NCBI GenBank assembly: GCA_903861145.1
Contig: CAIOTH010000168.1
Span: 1 to 34,722 of the forward strand
Length of the DNA stretch: 34,722 nucleotides
From: an uncultured Bacteroidota bacterium
GTDB taxonomy: Bacteria; Bacteroidota; Bacteroidia; Chitinophagales; LD1
Direction of reading: 5' to 3'
The translations under genes were made by a program, and so were the position numbers. This document shows positions 9,464 to 33,354 of the stretch, piece by piece. Position 1 is the stretch's first letter. Every line of letters starts with the position of its first letter. The notes beneath the pieces were generated by a model. That model saw only the letters and a program-made list of their open reading frames with translations, was not told the DNA's origin and did no database searches.

Positions 9464-10351
9464 ATGCACGCTTTAACCCAATCCTTCTTCAGTTATATTG
9501 AGTACGAAAAACGATACTCGGGCCATACGCTGGAGGCTTACAAAAGCGACCTGGACCAGTTTGCCATTTTCCTTACAAAGAATGAGAGCAATGATATTCC
9601 GTTTGCCACACACCACGATATACGCAACTGGATTGTGAACATGATGGAACAGAAAGTTTCGGCGCGCTCCATCAACCGTAAAATATCTACCCTTAAATCT
9701 TTCTATAAGTTTTTGATGAGGAAGGGAGAGATTAAGAAGAGCCCATTAGGCAAAGTGCAATCGCCCAAAACATCAAAACGCTTACCGGTTTTTGTTGAGT
9801 TGCCGGGGATTGAAAAGTTGCTGAAGGAAGTTGAATTCCCCGAAGGGTATGAAGGCCTGCGCGATAAAATGATTATCGAGCTTTTTTATGGCACCGGTAT
9901 GCGGCGTAACGAATTGATTAATCTGAAGGAGGCCGACGTTGACAGTTATAACTCTCAAATTAAAGTGCTGGGCAAGGGAAATAAAGAGCGGTTGATACCC
10001 ATTCATCCGGGACTATTAGCCTCGGTAAAAAACTTTATAGCGGAGAAGAAGAAACTGCTTGAGATTGGTGGAGAGCCCTATTTAATTGTAAGCGAGAAAG
10101 GCAAAAAACTTGAGCCCGGTATAGTTTACCATGTGGTTAAAAAGTATTTGAATATGGTAACCACCGTAGATAAAAAGAGTCCGCATGTTTTGAGGCATAC
10201 CTTTGCTACGCACCTAATGAATAACGGTGCCGATATTAATGCGGTGAAGGAATTATTAGGTCACACCAGCCTGGCGGCTACCCAGGTTTATACCCATAAT
10301 ACCATTGATAAGCTGAAGGAAATATACCGCCAGGCGCACCCCAAGGCTTAA
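9464..10351 (+). CDS. xerC: Tyrosine recombinase of the XerC/XerD type
   Basis: The 295-residue recombinase has the N-terminal SAM-like core-binding domain (about 1-90, with YIEYEKRYSGHTLEAYKSDL) and a C-terminal catalytic domain. All catalytic residues are present: R147 (GTGMR), K171 (LGKGNKER), H241 and R244 (HVLRHTFATH), H267 (LGHTS) and nucleophile Y276 (QVYTH). The length and the absence of extra domains fit a chromosome-dimer resolution enzyme rather than an integrase, and its place behind rpsU is the usual one in Bacteroidota. XerC or XerD cannot be decided by eye. It is separated from rpsU by a terminator and has a -7 box close to its ATG. The genes that often follow in this phylum (hibernation factor hpf, tRNAs, tuf) are absent. 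Confidence 0.9.
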   Translation: MHALTQSFFSYIEYEKRYSGHTLEAYKSDLDQFAIFLTKNESNDIPFATHHDIRNWIVNMMEQKVSARSINRKISTLKSFYKFLMRKGEIKKSPLGKVQSPKTSKRLPVFVELPGIEKLLKEVEFPEGYEGLRDKMIIELFYGTGMRRNELINLKEADVDSYNSQIKVLGKGNKERLIPIHPGLLASVKNFIAEKKKLLEIGGEPYLIVSEKGKKLEPGIVYHVVKKYLNMVTTVDKKSPHVLRHTFATHLMNNGADINAVKELLGHTSLAATQVYTHNTIDKLKEIYRQAHPKA

Positions 10352-20034: not shown

Positions 20035-20042
20035 TATCTTTG
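20035..20042 (+). promoter_or_regulatory. -7 box (TAnnTTTG) of the large T9SS-substrate gene
   Basis: TATCTTTG matches the Bacteroidota -7 element exactly, 51 bases before the ATG at 20094. It overlaps an upstream in-frame TTG at 20040, which is therefore very unlikely to be a start codon. No strong -33 element is visible. Confidence 0.55.
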
Positions 20043-20093
20043 AAGCTGACACAGGTTTTAACATTTCACTTAGTTCCTTTTTTGACTCAAAAC

Positions 20094-23000
20094 ATGAAGA
20101 AGCTTTACCCCCTTTTCGTAATATTATTGCTTTGGATAAATTCATATCCCCAGGGCCAAACAAACAATTGGTATTTTGGAGCCTTTGCAGGCGTTACGTT
20201 TAGCAGTGGGGTGCCGGTTGCAGTAACCACTAGCGCATTATCCACAGGTGAGGGTTGCGCTACCATTTCGGATAAATATGGTAACCTGCTCTTTTATACC
20301 GACGGTATAAAGGTGTGGAATAAGAATAACGTACAGATGACCAATGGGTTTGGCTTAAACGGCGATCCATCGGCGGCACAATCTGCCACCATTGTGCCTG
20401 CCCTCGGCAATTCAACCTTGTTTTACATTTTTACGGTTGCCGCACAAGGTAATCCGGCAGGGGTTTGTTGGTCGCAAGTGGACTTAACGCTAAATGGGGG
20501 GCTGGGCGATGTAGTAGTAGCCACAAAAAACACAACCCTCTTTACGCCAAGTGCGGAAAAATTATGCGCGGTTAAACATGCTAATGGCTTGTACGTTTGG
20601 GTAGTGGCACATGGGTTTACCGACAATGCTTTTCACGCATACCTGGTAGATTGTAACGGAGTTGAAGCACCGGTAATAAGCAATGTTGGGCAAAATGAAA
20701 CAGCGCCTGGGTGGGGATATATGGTTGCTTCCTCAGATGGTAAAAAGCTTGCAAAAGCATCGGCAAACGTGGGATTTGAGTTAGTTGATTTTAATAATTC
20801 AACCGGTGCGGTTTCCAATCCGGTCTTTTTGGGCAATCCAACTTCGCCGTATGGCATTTCATTTTCGCCCGATAACAATGTGCTTTACGGAATTAAAATA
20901 AATAACGGCTCAATTTGGCAGTGGAATTTAGCGGCTGGTACACCTGCGGCGATAATTGCATCAATGACTCAAATTGGAACGGCCATGGGTACCGGTGCTT
21001 ATAAAGGCGGCGCATTACAATTAGGACCGAATGGAAAAATGTATTTTCCACAGTATAATCAAGCATTTTTAAGCTGTATCAATAACCCAAATGTATTGGG
21101 AGTTGGCTGCAATATCCAGTTTAATGCGGTTAGTTTATCGGGACGTAATGCTATTTTGGGCTTACCTCCATTTATTCAAAGTTATTTTGACACTGCCGCA
21201 GTAATTCAATACACTGATACGTGTTTTCAGCACCCTACAAACTTTTCAGTAAGTGGAAACACGGGGTTACTTGATTCGGTTTACTGGAATTTTGCTGATC
21301 CTTCATCAGGAGCTCAGAATACATCAACCGCGCTAATAACCGCGCATACCTTCACTTCACCCGGTACTTTCAATGTTCAGCTCATCCGCTACCTATCCTG
21401 CGTGGCAGACACCAACTATCAAAATGTTACGATTTTGGCACCGGTTACCTCATCCCAAAATATCGCCACATGCCCCGGCACCGCAGTTACCCTGCCTGAC
21501 GGATCGACGGTTACAAATGCCGGTACCTATACCAGCACTATTACCGCTGCCTCAGGTTGCGATAGTATTGTTATTACCATCGTAACTTACGATTCGGTAC
21601 ATGCCACTCCGGTTCAAGCAATATGTAAAGGGCAATCGGCGCAGTTAAACGCCACCGGTGCCTCGTATTATTCGTGGACGCCCACTGCAAATCTCAGCAA
21701 TCCAAATATTGCCAATCCTATAGTATCGCCAACAACTACAACCACGTATACCGTTTCGGGCCTCGAACCACTGGATAATTTAATTGTGAATGGAGATTTT
21801 TCGCAGGGTAACACAGGCTTCTCTTCGGGATACGCTTATACCCCACCGCCTAACAATAACCAAGGGCAATATTGGGTTTCTACCAACGCTCAGCCCTGGA
21901 ACGGAGGAATGGCACCCTGTGGCGACCATACCACCGGCACCGGTAATATGCTATTAGTTAACGGGGCAACAACACCTAACGTATCAGTTTGGTGCCAAAC
22001 TGTAAATGTAACGCCCAATACTAATTATGCGTTTTCAACGTGGCTGGCCACATTAACCGCAAACAATCCTGCACAACTGCAGTTCTCAATTAACGGCGTA
22101 CTAGTAGGTTCAGTCTTTACCGCCTCGCTCACCAATTGCATTTGGCAGCAATTTTATAATGTTTGGAACTCTGGCGCTAACACTACTGCTAACATCTGCG
22201 TGGTCAATCAAAATACGGTTGCATCGGGTAACGATTTTGCGCTCGATGATATATCCTTTACACCGCTTTGTGTAGTAACCGATACGGTAACCGTTACAGT
22301 TTATCCAACGTACAGTAGTGCAGTTAGCCGGGATATTTGCAATGGAGTATCGTATACCCTGCCCAACGGAACGCAGGCCACTGTTACCGGTGCTTATATC
22401 GATACTTTACAAACCATAAATGGCTGCGACAGTATCATTACAACCAACTTAACAATTCACCCGGAATATGCCGATTCCGCCTTCCCTATTATTTGCCCGT
22501 TTGATATTTATCTATTACCTGACGGAATTACAGTTCATACCACTGGGGTTTATACTACTCATTTTACCAGTATATATGGCTGTGATAGTAGCATTACTAC
22601 GCACCTTACAGTTATTCCTTCAACATTAATTGCAGGCGATGATACTGCCATTTGTCTCGGCGATTCAGCACAGCTTTTTGCCAGTGGCAGCTTGCTTAAT
22701 AATTACTCTTGGTCACCAGCGGCAGGTTTGAGCGATTCGAGTATTGCTAATCCCAAAGCAAGCCCGTTACAAACTACTACGTACATAGTTACTTCGCAAA
22801 TAGGTTCGGGCAATTTGATATTTAATGGCGATTTTTCGCAAGGGAATGTAGGTTTTAATACTGCTTACAACTACGACCCTAATCTGGTTCCTGAAGGGAA
22901 TTATTACATCGGGGCTAATCCGCAAACGTATCATGGCGGATTTTCTCCCTGTCCCGATCATACTACCGGAACCGGGAACCAGATGATTATTAATGGATCG

Positions 23001-24968
23001 AGCACCCCTAACACAAATGTGTGGTGTCAAACAATCAGTGTAACGCCAAACACTAATTACACTTTTATTGCCTGGGGACAAAGCGTAACCCAGGGTAACC
23101 CGGCGCAACTGCAGTTCTCAATTGATGGCAGCCAAATAGGGCCCATTTTTAATCTTCCGGTGCCAACTTGTCAATGGTCGCAATTTTATACAACATGGTA
23201 TTCGGGAGCGAACACAACAGCCAATATTTGTATTCTGAATCAACAGACCGCACCCGGTGGAAACGATTTTGCTATTGACGATATTTCGTTTGTAAGCATT
23301 TGTACGGCATTTGATAGTGTTACCGTTGTAGTACACCATCCCGACACCGTTGTTATTGACACTTCCATTTGCCAGGGGCCAACTTATACTTTTCCCGATG
23401 GGACAACTTCAATAGCTGCAACAACAGACACTGCGCGTTTTTCAAACCGGTTTGGATGCGATAGCACCATTATAACAAACCTTACTGTTAATCCGACATA
23501 TAGCGTTGCGGTATTCCCAAGCATCTGCTATGGAACAACATATACTTTACCCTCAGGCGTGGTAGTAAATACTAGTGGTGTTTATACAGATACACTTTAC
23601 ACCATCCATGGTTGCGACAGCATTGTTGTAACGCATCTGACAATTAACCCTGCTCCGATTAGTTCGCAATTTGACACCATTTGCCAGGGATTTACTTTTA
23701 TCCGGCCATCGGGCTTAACGGCCACTACAACCGGGGTTTATATTGATACGCTTGCCCTGCAAACCGGCTGCGACAGTGTGGTTATTACCAATCTTACGGT
23801 CCATCCAACTTCGGCTACAACCACGCTCGATACAATTTGCACCGGCGCAAGCTTAACCCTGGGTGATGGTAACGTTGTTACTACGTCAGGCTCATACCCC
23901 GTCACATTGCCCAACAGGTTTGGATGCGACAGTATTTCGACCACCATTCTTACTGTAATAACCGTAAATGTTGTTGCTACTGAAACCGATGAAACGTGCT
24001 ACGGTTTAAGTGCCGGCAGCATACAAGCAGATGCAACCGGAGGAGTAAATCCTTACAGCTATAATTTATTGGTTGGTGGTAATACCATGGGCAATAATGC
24101 AACAGGTACCTTTAATCAACTGGCGGCGGGCAGTTATGAAATAAGTGCTACAGATAATTTTGGATGTAGCGCAACCACCAATATTATCATCCACCAGCCA
24201 GATTCGCTGGTGCTAAGTGAGAACATTGTTAATGTTACTTGTTTTGGAGCGCACAACGGGCAGGTGGCGCTTAATGCAACCGGTGGTACAATCGCTTACA
24301 CTTACTTTTTAAATAATCAATCAAGCAATACCGGAGTTTATTCGGGACTTGATACCGGAAGTTATGAATGCGAGGTTGTGGATGCTCATGGCTGCACTGA
24401 CTCAACAAGCATAAATATCCACCAGCCTCAGCCTGTTTATATCAGCATTTCTCCCGATTCTCTTTATGTCAATTTGGGTAAAACCATTCAGTTAAACGCA
24501 ACTTCCAATTTCGACCCTTCCACCACTTATTTATGGAGCCCTTCGTTTGGATTAAGTTGTATTAATTGCCCGGATCCGGTGGTAGATATTAATAACACGG
24601 CACAATACACAGTACAGGTTACGGCAAGCATTAACGGCAACAATTGCACGGCAGATACCAGTGTAACAGTTACGGTTATACCCGATTACGACCTATTTAT
24701 ACCGAATGTATTTACACCTAATAACGATGGTAAAAATGATTTCTTTCAAATATTCGGTAACCTGCCGGCATTGAAGTTTATTCATATCATGTTGTTTGAC
24801 CGGATTGGTGAATTGGTTTTTGAAAGCAACGACATTAACTTTAAATGGGATGGCACTTACAAAGGGCAATTGTTACCACCGGCCGTATATGTTTATACGC
24901 TTAGAGCGGTTTTTGATGATGACCATACCGATAAACTATATAATGGTAGTGTTACCTTGTTGAGGTAG
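20094..24968 (+). CDS. Giant secreted multi-domain protein with T9SS type B (gliding-type) C-terminal domain
   Basis: The 1624-residue product starts at the ATG at 20094 with a signal peptide (MKKLYPLF, core ILLLWI). Residues about 25-370 look like a beta-propeller (NNWYFGAFAGVTF, YTDGIKVWNKNN). A PKD domain (about 375-435) follows. From 450 to 1290, about seven short cysteine repeats of the form IC-x-G-x2-Y-x-LP(S/D)G ... GCDS(I/T) alternate with two 165-residue modules (about 561-727 and 905-1072). Each module runs from NGDFSQGN to the DIS(F/FV) end and resembles carbohydrate-binding galactose-fold domains. Two SprB-like repeats (about 1293-1445) and a C-terminal domain (FIPNVFTPNNDGKNDFFQIF, about 1533-1624) end it. 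The C-terminal domain is the signal for type IX secretion, type B. It is probably a cell-surface adhesin or released glycan binder; substrate is unknown. Confidence 0.9.
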   Translation: MKKLYPLFVILLLWINSYPQGQTNNWYFGAFAGVTFSSGVPVAVTTSALSTGEGCATISDKYGNLLFYTDGIKVWNKNNVQMTNGFGLNGDPSAAQSATIVPALGNSTLFYIFTVAAQGNPAGVCWSQVDLTLNGGLGDVVVATKNTTLFTPSAEKLCAVKHANGLYVWVVAHGFTDNAFHAYLVDCNGVEAPVISNVGQNETAPGWGYMVASSDGKKLAKASANVGFELVDFNNSTGAVSNPVFLGNPTSPYGISFSPDNNVLYGIKINNGSIWQWNLAAGTPAAIIASMTQIGTAMGTGAYKGGALQLGPNGKMYFPQYNQAFLSCINNPNVLGVGCNIQFNAVSLSGRNAILGLPPFIQSYFDTAAVIQYTDTCFQHPTNFSVSGNTGLLDSVYWNFADPSSGAQNTSTALITAHTFTSPGTFNVQLIRYLSCVADTNYQNVTILAPVTSSQNIATCPGTAVTLPDGSTVTNAGTYTSTITAASGCDSIVITIVTYDSVHATPVQAICKGQSAQLNATGASYYSWTPTANLSNPNIANPIVSPTTTTTYTVSGLEPLDNLIVNGDFSQGNTGFSSGYAYTPPPNNNQGQYWVSTNAQPWNGGMAPCGDHTTGTGNMLLVNGATTPNVSVWCQTVNVTPNTNYAFSTWLATLTANNPAQLQFSINGVLVGSVFTASLTNCIWQQFYNVWNSGANTTANICVVNQNTVASGNDFALDDISFTPLCVVTDTVTVTVYPTYSSAVSRDICNGVSYTLPNGTQATVTGAYIDTLQTINGCDSIITTNLTIHPEYADSAFPIICPFDIYLLPDGITVHTTGVYTTHFTSIYGCDSSITTHLTVIPSTLIAGDDTAICLGDSAQLFASGSLLNNYSWSPAAGLSDSSIANPKASPLQTTTYIVTSQIGSGNLIFNGDFSQGNVGFNTAYNYDPNLVPEGNYYIGANPQTYHGGFSPCPDHTTGTGNQMIINGSSTPNTNVWCQTISVTPNTNYTFIAWGQSVTQGNPAQLQFSIDGSQIGPIFNLPVPTCQWSQFYTTWYSGANTTANICILNQQTAPGGNDFAIDDISFVSICTAFDSVTVVVHHPDTVVIDTSICQGPTYTFPDGTTSIAATTDTARFSNRFGCDSTIITNLTVNPTYSVAVFPSICYGTTYTLPSGVVVNTSGVYTDTLYTIHGCDSIVVTHLTINPAPISSQFDTICQGFTFIRPSGLTATTTGVYIDTLALQTGCDSVVITNLTVHPTSATTTLDTICTGASLTLGDGNVVTTSGSYPVTLPNRFGCDSISTTILTVITVNVVATETDETCYGLSAGSIQADATGGVNPYSYNLLVGGNTMGNNATGTFNQLAAGSYEISATDNFGCSATTNIIIHQPDSLVLSENIVNVTCFGAHNGQVALNATGGTIAYTYFLNNQSSNTGVYSGLDTGSYECEVVDAHGCTDSTSINIHQPQPVYISISPDSLYVNLGKTIQLNATSNFDPSTTYLWSPSFGLSCINCPDPVVDINNTAQYTVQVTASINGNNCTADTSVTVTVIPDYDLFIPNVFTPNNDGKNDFFQIFGNLPALKFIHIMLFDRIGELVFESNDINFKWDGTYKGQLLPPAVYVYTLRAVFDDDHTDKLYNGSVTLLR

Positions 24969-29973: not shown

Positions 29974-32900
29974 ATGGTGAAAAAATTGTTTAATTCAGGT
30001 GTTAAGATACTAGGCATTGCGTTACTAATGAGCTGTGTTTTTGACATAAAAGCGCAAGCTCCGCCGCAGGCGATGAATTACCAGGCTATTGTTAGAGACG
30101 CATCGGGTAACCCTCTTGCACCTAATACCCAGGTTTGTGTGCAATTTACTATTACGGATGGGCAAAATCCCGGTACGCCAGTTTACAGAGAAACCCAAAC
30201 TTTAACTACGGCTGGTACTAATAGGGCTTTGGGGCTAATTACCGCGCAAATAGGAACAGGAAATCCCATTAGCGGCACTTTTTCTGCCATCCAATGGTCA
30301 ACGGGCAATAAGTTTATGGAAGTTGATATTGATCTCAGCTGTTCAGGTAATTGGACGAACATGGGATCGACCCAACTGATTAGTGTTCCATATGCATTCT
30401 ATGCCGGAACTGCAGGTAATGGTGGCGGAGGCGCTACGGGACCAACGGGCGCAACAGGTACTGCAGGAACGGCCGGTTCGCAAGGTGCTACAGGGCAGGG
30501 AGGCAATACAGGTCCCAGGGGAATAACCGGAGCACAAGGTCCGACAGGATTAACCGGTGCAACAGGATTAACCGGACCTACCGGATTGCAAGGGATACAG
30601 GGGATAACAGGTGCTACCGGCGCAACCGGTGCCATTGGTTTAACAGGTTTTACCGGTGCCATAGGAAGAACCGGAACAACTGGTTTTACGGGGTCAACTG
30701 GTAATACAGGGGCTACCGGTAGTACTGGTGCAACCGGAGATATTGGATTAACAGGTGTTACTGGTTTCGGACCCACAGGATTTACAGGTGCTACCGGTGC
30801 TACTGGCAGCACCGGGTCCACAGGAGATATTGGATTGACAGGTGCCACTGGTTTTGGGCCAACGGGTTTTACTGGACCTACTGGTGCCACAGGATCTACT
30901 GGTGCTACAGGTGACATAGGTTTAACCGGCGTTACCGGTTTTGGGCCGACCGGATTTACGGGAGGGACCGGCGCAACTGGTAATACCGGAGCTACAGGAC
31001 CTATCGGTTTAACAGGTGCAACTGGCGCGGTTGGAGCTACTGGCGCAATAGGGGCTACAGGATTCACGGGATCAACCGGAGCAATAGGACCTATTGGTTT
31101 AACAGGTGCGACTGGAGCGGTTGGAGCTACTGGCGCAATAGGGGCTACAGGATTTACAGGATCAACCGGAGCTACAGGGGCGATTGGATTGACAGGAGCT
31201 ACAGGGGCGGTTGGAGCTACTGGATTTACGGGACTTACAGGAAGTGTTGGCGCTACAGGCGCAACCGGTTTAACAGGAGCCACAGGCTTTGGTGTAACCG
31301 GAACAACGGGTAATGGCGGAGCTACTGGAAGCACAGGAGGTACAGGGGCCACAGGAGTTACTGGCCCCGGAGGTGCAGGCAGCATAGGCGCAACGGGAAA
31401 TAACGGGGCTACGGGCGCAACAGGGGCAACCGGTGTAACCGGCACTAATGGAGGTACTGGTGCAACGGGTAGTACCGGTTCAATTGGAGTTACAGGACCC
31501 GGAGGAACAGGTAGCGTAGGTGCTACCGGTAGCAATGGTGCTACCGGTGCAACAGGCGCAACGGGATCAACAGGTAGTATAGGTGTTACAGGGGCTACCG
31601 GTGCATTGGGCACGGCCGGCGGAAATTTATCGGGTAACTATCCTAATCCTACGGTTGTTCAAATTCAGAACGTTGGTGTTTCAGCAACTGCCCCGGTAGC
31701 TGGTCAGGCATTAGTGTATAATGGCACCTCGTATGTTCCTACAACCGTGCCTACGGCCGGCTGGCAGTTAACAGGTAACTTGGGTACCACTCCTGCTACA
31801 AACTATGTTGGAACTGCTGACGGGCAAAATTTACAGTTCAAAATAAACGGAGTTAATTCCGGTCTGTTAGATATGAATTCTGGTAACACATATTTTGGAT
31901 ACCAGGCTGGATTGGTAGGTGCTAGCCTTAATAACACATTTTTGGGTGCGCAAAGTGGTATTAGCACCACAACTGGTTACTCTAATACAGGCGTAGGATT
32001 CCAGGCATTACATGCCAATGTGGGGGGGCTTTTCAATGTAGCTGTCGGAGTAAATGCGCTTGGCCTCAATAATGCTAATAACAACACAGCTGTGGGTGCA
32101 GGTTCTATGGGTTCCAATACTGGTGGAGGCCAGAATACTGCATTGGGTTCTTCAAGTCTAGGAGCAAATACTTCGGGTTCAGACAATACAGGTTTAGGTT
32201 TTTCGGCATTAAGCAGCAATACTTCGGGTTTTTGGAATGTAGCTTTAGGCAGCCAGAGTTTGCAATATAATACAGCAGGTAGCTATTGTACCGCAGTTGG
32301 TTATGGCGCGCTAAATGGTAATACAACGGGTAACAGTAACGTTGGAATAGGAGAAAGAGCACTTAAATCCAATACTGTAGGTAATGAAAACATTGCTATT
32401 GGAATTGTATCTCTTTTTTCCAACACCGGTGGTAATGACAATACAGCTTTAGGAACCGCTTCTCTTGAATATACTTATGCCAGCAATAATGTTGCGATGG
32501 GTGCATATTCAATGCAAAACAATACCTCGGGGTCGGCAAATACCGGGTTGGGTTACTATGCCTTGGCAAATAATACAGTGGCTAATTTCAGCGTAGGGGT
32601 AGGTGACTCGGCGCTTTTTGCATATAACGGTACCGCTGTTCAAGGTGGTAATACAGCAGTTGGAGGTGCAGCGTTAGCATTTAATACCACCGGTTTTCAT
32701 AATGCTGCATTAGGTTACCAGGCAGGCTATAAAACGTTAACGGGTAATCAGGTTACGGCGTTAGGAGCCTATAGCGGACCAACAGCAGATGTGAGTAACC
32801 AAACGGACGTTGGTTATCTTTCAGGCAACGCTAACGCTAATTGCGTAGTGCTGGGAAATAACTCGATAACCGCAATTTATTCGGCGGTAAACGTTATAAC

Positions 32901-33354
32901 CCTTTCTGATCAGAGAATTAAAAATAACATACAAAATGAGGCGCATGGTTTGGATTTTATTATGCGTCTAAGGCCAGTTACTTATAATTATGACGTTCAT
33001 CTGGCAGATCAATTAACCGGTATGAGCGATAAAATTGCCAAGATGGATCCGGAGGCGAAAAAACTATACGAGGATGGCGTGAAAGAAAAAGAGAAGGTTA
33101 AGTATACAGGTTTTATTGCGCAGGAGGTTGAGAACGCTGCGAATGAAGTGGGATACGACTTTAGTGGTATAAGCAAGCCTAAAAATGACAAATCTATCTA
33201 CGGATTAGCGTATTCGGAATTTGTAGTGCCTTTGGTAAAAAGTGTTCAAGAGCAACAAAGTATGATTGACACCCAAAAAGCATTGATTGAAAAGTTAAAT
33301 GCTCATATTGACCAAATGCAAAGGGAAATTGATGAGCTAAAAAGACAGAAATAA
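29974..33354 (+). CDS. Collagen-like, YadA-head-like surface fibre protein with S74 self-cleaving chaperone
   Basis: The 1126-residue product has a signal peptide (about 1-28) and an N-terminal domain (30-148, [18 protein letters not shown]) found in Bacteroidota exported proteins. Residues about 150-549 are Gly-X-Thr/Y triplets, mostly GAT, GFT and GLT, like bacterial collagens. From about 640 to 962 come 14-24-residue repeats of the NTALGxxSL/NxGLGxxAL type, as in the heads of YadA-like trimers. At 978-983, S-D-Q-R-I-K starts a peptidase S74 domain, the intramolecular chaperone of phage tail spikes, where Ser and the Lys five residues later act in self-cleavage (from memory of endosialidase). 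A coiled coil (about 1085-1126) ends it. A trimeric surface fibre is the likely form. No type IX signal is visible after the domain. Confidence 0.88.
31024..31203. repeat. Two 90-bp near-identical tandem repeats in the collagen-like region
   Basis: The unit at 31024-31113 recurs at 31114-31203 with few changes, and a shortened third copy begins at 31204. Each codes for 30 residues of the type G-A-V-G-A-T ... G-A-T, so copy-number change would keep the reading frame. Confidence 0.8.

Follow-up and report, generated by a model that had tools for sequence, protein, structure and literature searches.

The window analysed here is a stretch of 34,722 nucleotides (contig CAIOTH010000168.1 of assembly GCA_903861145.1) from an uncultured member of the Bacteroidota. 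It carries a gene whose product combines a likely signal peptide, an N-terminal domain (N-domain), a collagen-like stalk, a head of short repeats and a Peptidase_S74 (S74) domain (Table 1). An earlier sequence-only reading of this DNA had proposed the same open reading frame, and its account of the frame, the Sec signal peptide and the collagen stalk agrees with our results. The signal peptide is likely, as judged by eye and from a junction (AQ-A/V-PQ) that is conserved in the paralogues described below; its exact cut is only approximate. The stalk matches Pfam Collagen with an E-value of 1e-40, and its G-X-Y triplets fall into seven runs. Threonine occupies the third place in 94 of the 136 triplets and proline the second place in 12. 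As in other bacterial collagens, these threonines may carry sugar. A 404-aa proline-rich open frame antisense to the stalk (window 30399-31613, reverse strand) is a by-product of the G-X-Y codons.

Table 1. Features of the fibre gene, in window coordinates.
Feature	Position	Strand	Basis or remark
Whole fibre gene	29974..33354	+	1126 aa and stop
Likely Sec signal peptide, residues 1-28	29974..30057	+	By eye; conserved AQ-APQ junction in paralogues
N-domain, residues 28-147	30055..30414	+	37 matches in own genome, alignment A1, MAT_N matches, model pLDDT 87
Collagen-like stalk, residues 150-551	30421..31626	+	136 G-X-Y triplets, short breaks
Head of 17-residue repeats, residues 641-968	31894..32877	+	Autocorrelation; strands at that spacing in model
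Peptidase_S74 match, residues 978-1060	32905..33153	+	Pfam; S978 and K983 predicted as catalytic pair, with the cut in front of S978
C-terminal long helix, residues 1080-1124	33211..33345	+	Structure model

The head shows a self-match of 0.30 at lag 17 and of 0.21 at lag 34 in the autocorrelation. It had been described as YadA-head-like. This is right only in part: a repeat head is present, but the period is 17 residues and Pfam YadA_head is unmatched in the window protein at E≤0.01. The unit of the YadA head has 14 residues. A trimeric autotransporter of the YadA type was rejected for the same reasons and because the C-terminus consists of the S74 domain and a long helix, not of an anchor barrel.

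The S74 domain lies well above its Pfam cut-off (E 2.5e-9, 37.7 bits versus a cut-off of 22). It opens with S978-D-Q-R-I-K983, so that the SDxxxK catalytic motif is present with both the serine and the lysine intact, as had been claimed. The 14 tails in alignment A3 all have the serine, aspartate, arginine and lysine of the motif, and SDxRxK occurs in all 12 S74 matches of the organism's own genome, the twelfth being on contig C74. By homology to Ser782 of Bd3182 from Bdellovibrio, S978 and K983 are expected to be the catalytic residues. An AlphaFold2 model of the last 579 residues has a mean pLDDT of 67; its helical end reaches 77-90 by block, while the head, which contains short strands at 17-residue spacing, is modelled with low to middling confidence. 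The 11 best PDB matches of this model are S74-type intramolecular chaperones, among them 7dc3 (MyRF ICA), 3gud and 3gw6. Their Foldseek E-values (0.02 to 0.6) are weak because the head makes up most of the model. A 14-row profile of the C-terminal part matches 6f45 (phage long tail fibre distal subunit) and 7dc3 (MyRF) by sequence; a single-sequence search of the PDB with the C-terminal half gave nothing useful.

The N-domain, left undiscussed by the sequence-only reading, defines the fibre family. It matches 37 places in the organism's own 4.7-Mb genome and lies near the start of its frame; one of these frames (L075) is partial and was left out of alignments A1 and A2. The 36 aligned N-domains have invariant residues in common, including an early YQA and a terminal SVPYA. 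What follows the N-domain on these 36 full frames varies: collagen is found on 29, S74 on eight, Lcl_C on seven and YadA_head on one (E≤0.001). Eight of the 12 S74 domains of the genome are on N-domain frames; two more are on an adjoining frame (contigs C9 and C115) and two occur without an N-domain, both on contig C118.

The N-domain is predicted to be all-beta (pLDDT 87). Sequence searches found no credible relative in the PDB, and Foldseek with the model returned none at E≤0.001. VIA-align gave Z values of 5.9 to 6.8 to assorted beta-sandwiches among the rows listed, which is below a telling level. The profile Bdello_MAT_N (NCBIfam NF053851), which describes the N-domain of the mosaic adhesive trimer (MAT) fibres of Bdellovibrio, matches 35 of the 36 N-domains at E≤0.01, with a best value of 7.2e-12. 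For the window N-domain the E-value is 2.3e-7, and the whole protein scores 22.5 bits. In a scan of the whole genome none of 30 matches reached the curated cut-off of 60 bits (best 37.1), and most of them cover the first half of the model. By sequence comparison, the N-domain thus appears distantly related to that of the MAT fibres. As it stays below the curated cut-off, we call the family MAT-like rather than MAT.

Some paralogues depart from the common build. At L044 (1653-7685 and 346-1716, reverse strand) and L047 (3901-4662 and 1909-3897, reverse strand) the N-domain frame ends ahead of the S74 domain, which is found on the frame that follows. A broken gene, an assembly error or switching could produce such an arrangement, which is only described here. 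In the N-domain frame L052:6211-7476 (reverse strand) the S74 domain ends early, the last residues being LDFITRLRRI. The two frames on contig C118 (L076:5673-7226 and L077:2525-4693, both forward) combine collagen and S74 without an N-domain, and L076 starts otherwise (NNVGIGTPAPDASSLLELKSTSTGFLVPRLTSAQR).

The N-domain is widespread in the phylum. It was found in at least 75 of 296 sampled genomes; at most 15 candidates were scored per genome, and copies, perhaps also genomes, are undercounted. The S74 domain occurs in 88 of the 296, and both domains share one frame in at least 26, the organism's own genome included. All 79 named loci with an N-domain, taken from the best 80 of at least 567 confirmed matches, are titled Bacteroidota. 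Within the window's own family the domain is present in 28 of 30 genomes. SprA of the type IX secretion system (T9SS) is encoded in the own genome and in all 75 genomes with an N-domain. We do not lean on this co-presence, because SprA occurs in 228 of the 296 genomes and the genomes without it belong largely to a few families. T9SS surface proteins are also encoded close to the fibre gene, since window 20040-24968 (forward strand) specifies a protein of 1642 aa that contains SprB repeats and a T9SS tail of type B (CHU_C).

A small gene with a T9SS tail recurs next to N-domain genes in other loci. This partner gene encodes about 165-170 aa, made up of a signal peptide, a module of ~60 aa and a type IX secretion tail. 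In family f24 all 12 loci have it directly ahead of the N-domain gene, in the same orientation and no more than about 20 bases away. Overall, a small T9SS-tailed gene lies upstream of 47 of 156 N-domain genes, compared with 5 of 665 other genes of the same loci. The 47 divide into 2 of 35 genes in the own genome, 30 of 96 in the named loci (from the same best 80 of at least 567 confirmed matches) and 15 of 25 in the phylum loci. Genes with 700 bp of upstream sequence were counted, leaving out 8 of 164 with less, and three frames on viral contigs. The initial selection of partners used a tail-like pattern and a length of up to 260 aa; the count does not include a tailed neighbour of 348 aa at L056.

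Alignment A4 comprises 46 of the 49 partners, leaving out one on a viral contig (L195) and two whose start was trimmed wrongly (L180 and L183). All 46 carry a type A sorting domain, matched by both TIGR04183 (NCBIfam) and PF18962 (Pfam). The other Pfam matches are to CHU_C (seven), DUF3244 (four), FlgD_ig (one) and DUF4851 (one). The module just before the tail is marked by S-Y/F-S/T-V/I-G-E/Q and, mostly outside f24, by T-Q-G-x-Q-Q. Further genes that recur in the surroundings of the f24 loci (clusters c2-c13) seem to represent the local gene order of f24. The module also opens a large protein (L199 from 1429, forward strand; a 953-aa frame at G000:C33:26485), and in other genomes of the window's family it is found in frames of 800-1686 aa.

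A sorting tail within the fibre itself was considered and rejected: NCBIfam models found none on the 36 own frames, and a profile of the partner tails found none on 167 N-domain frames. The sequence-only reading had called for a search for a co-occurring exporter. This search yielded a strong lead in the small T9SS substrate that is co-inherited with the N-domain, though not beside the window gene itself, which is flanked upstream by a divergent ABC transporter and downstream by a convergent acyltransferase.

For the survey of genomes we used a profile of the module (A5), built from 39 of the 46 partners in A4 without two divergent L135 rows and five f24 rows. It detects the module in 51 of 296 genomes, 50 of which also have the N-domain. 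In the sole exception (G223), an S74 gene lies at a distance of about 1 kb from the module. Among genomes with a strong N-domain match (E≤1e-20) the module is present in 47 of 49, the exceptions being G045 and G126; it is absent from 23 of 26 genomes with only weaker matches (E above 1e-20). The two are also physically linked, with 54 of 63 module matches lying within 1.5 kb of an N-domain match. When the 228 SprA-positive genomes are stratified by family, 45 joint presences are observed versus 22.4 expected, with nine informative families. In f24, 15 SprA-positive genomes have both module and N-domain and 20 have neither. Of the 30 genomes in the window's family, the 28 with the N-domain are also those with the module, and the remaining two have neither.

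The rows of A5 come from 9 of the 51 module genomes. When these source genomes are removed from the SprA-positive set, 38 genomes with a strong N-domain have the module and two do not, as against 4 with and 175 without among the rest; the named loci in A5 may still be species that are also among the sampled genomes. Because the genomes are related, p-values are only indicative. It is the repeated within-family pattern, together with the linkage, that carries the argument for co-inheritance. We are highly confident that the partner is functionally tied to the N-domain family. That a partner encoded elsewhere also serves the window gene itself is probable with less assurance. The own genome has three modules versus 37 N-domains.

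Taken together, we consider it likely that the window gene encodes a trimeric, self-cleaving surface fibre of a large mosaic family, served by a T9SS partner whose module binds the N-domain and either anchors the fibre or also exports it. The part of this reading that concerns a self-cleaving surface fibre is very probable. We infer trimerization, cleavage, surface display and partner binding as follows. The fibre would be exported by Sec. Its N-domain may form the cell-proximal base, the collagen the stalk and the repeat head the binding tip. The S74 domain would help the trimer to fold and then cut itself off before Ser978, as Bd3182 does at S782. If this self-cut occurs, the mature fibre comprises about residues 28-977. 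The module of the partner would bind the N-domain and moor the fibre at the surface, or also bring it through the T9SS pore. Type A T9SS substrates can be attached to A-LPS after their tail has been cut (PMC10202324), and the partner, as such a substrate, would presumably be attached in the same way after tail removal. Whether its main role is anchoring rather than export is evenly poised in our judgement. A bolder version is tentative and somewhat doubtful. Here, the small T9SS substrate would bind the N-domain of the tail-less trimeric fibre, take it through the translocon and stay behind as its mooring, so that a single carrier gene could be enough for dozens of phage-tipped fibres that are interchangeable. 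If true, proteins that lack a sorting tail could exploit the type IX system indirectly, and a single type of mooring could let a genome display its phage-tipped fibres by the dozen. We found neither this two-part carrier logic nor its T9SS partner in the openly licensed literature searched.

Rather unlikely, in our view, is that the same surface fibre leaves the cell by another route, as in Bdellovibrio, with the small T9SS protein being independent and merely co-regulated. No partner adjoins the window gene, nor 33 of the 35 N-domain genes counted in the own genome. To our knowledge, MAT fibres work in a bacterium without T9SS and need none; hence, the N-domain is not always dependent on this system. 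However, co-inheritance within families and the absence of a sorting tail from all 167 N-domain frames suggest dependence rather than mere co-regulation. That the fibre is released unanchored and serves as a structural or adhesive polymer of the extracellular matrix, with the partner as another matrix component, appears improbable. The collagen stalk and the many paralogues would suit such a polymer, and the fibre sequence shows neither an evident membrane anchor nor a lipobox. Yet a conserved N-domain with a diversified far end is the layout of the MAT fibres, which were shown on the predator surface (PMC10769870).

It is very improbable that the gene belongs to a prophage or an extracellular contractile injection system (eCIS) and encodes its tail fibre. 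The head and S74 part of the product resembles 113 phage records, at identities of less than 60% throughout, as well as PHROG tail families, which bears out the phage-tail-fibre-like tip of the earlier description, and S74 is mentioned in papers on eCIS tail fibres. The N-domain gene L194:7938-9521 (forward strand) lies on a viral contig with tape measure, endolysin and transposase genes (PHROGs). Among three viral contigs with N-domain genes, this one is a convincing transposable phage; consequently, the domain can ride on phages. Another of these contigs (L195) carries a pair of partner and N-domain genes. Against a phage or eCIS origin stand the signal peptide, the spread of 37 N-domain copies over the genome and the lack of any N-domain match in 50,697 phage records. 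Among 72,556 plasmid records there is one, on a plasmid of Aureispira anguillae (NZ_AP026868.1:12815-13141). None of 10 window open reading frames compared with PHROGs belongs to a head, tail or packaging family; one is an integrase and others match families of metabolic, 'moron' or unknown type. The 14 other window proteins with Pfam matches belong to household families only. The claim that no phage genes lie nearby is therefore fair; a lone tyrosine recombinase (window 9464-10351, forward strand; Pfam Phage_integrase and PHROG integrase) is located 20 kb from the fibre gene. Equally improbable is a decayed or unexpressed gene of phage origin without function. Some paralogue frames are interrupted (L044, L047 and L052), but the window frame is intact over 1126 aa, the catalytic motif is preserved in every S74 domain of the genome and the gene is conserved across genera. 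Thus, the fibre gene is real and cellular, and its tip is of phage type.

The closest known system is the MAT family of Bdellovibrio bacteriovorus, for which S74 self-cleavage, with Bd3182 cut at S782, and surface display of family members have been published (PMC10769870). A self-trimmed bacterial fibre is hence known in kind and the idea is not new. Like the S74 group of the MAT proteins, the window protein has a signal peptide followed by a beta-rich domain of about 120-130 aa, a long fibre and an S74 end with SDxxxK, and like the MAT family as a whole its relatives are many per genome, with varied tips on a common base (PMC10769870). In contrast to MAT, the window family belongs to the Bacteroidota, has a collagen stalk and a linked T9SS partner, and its N-domain matches below the NCBIfam cut-off and mostly over the first half of the model; the word 'collagen' is absent from the main text of the MAT paper (PMC10769870). 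The MAT authors likewise describe no telling PDB relative for their own domain and leave open which surface element holds it (PMC10769870). The T9SS partner is a concrete small candidate for this role in the Bacteroidota. Neither the pair nor such fibres in Bacteroidota were found in the openly licensed literature searched.

Lcl, the collagen-like adhesin of Legionella, shares the trimeric collagen stalk and a C-terminal binding tip (PMC11162425), and Lcl_C is present on seven of the 36 paralogues. In contrast, Lcl has an amphipathic helix at its N-terminus and lacks an S74 domain (PMC11162425), and the window protein is without the Lcl_C tip. Phage tail fibres and spikes (K1F endosialidase 3gw6; SPO1-like phage proteins) share the head repeats and the S74 domain, but not the signal peptide or the N-domain, the latter being unmatched in the 50,697 phage records. 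Type A substrates of the T9SS (TIGR04183 / PF18962) resemble the partner in their tail; the fibre, unlike them, has none, and in the partner only the tail follows the ~60-aa module. The fibre described here is therefore of a known kind, and its collagen-stalked Bacteroidota branch is a variant of it.
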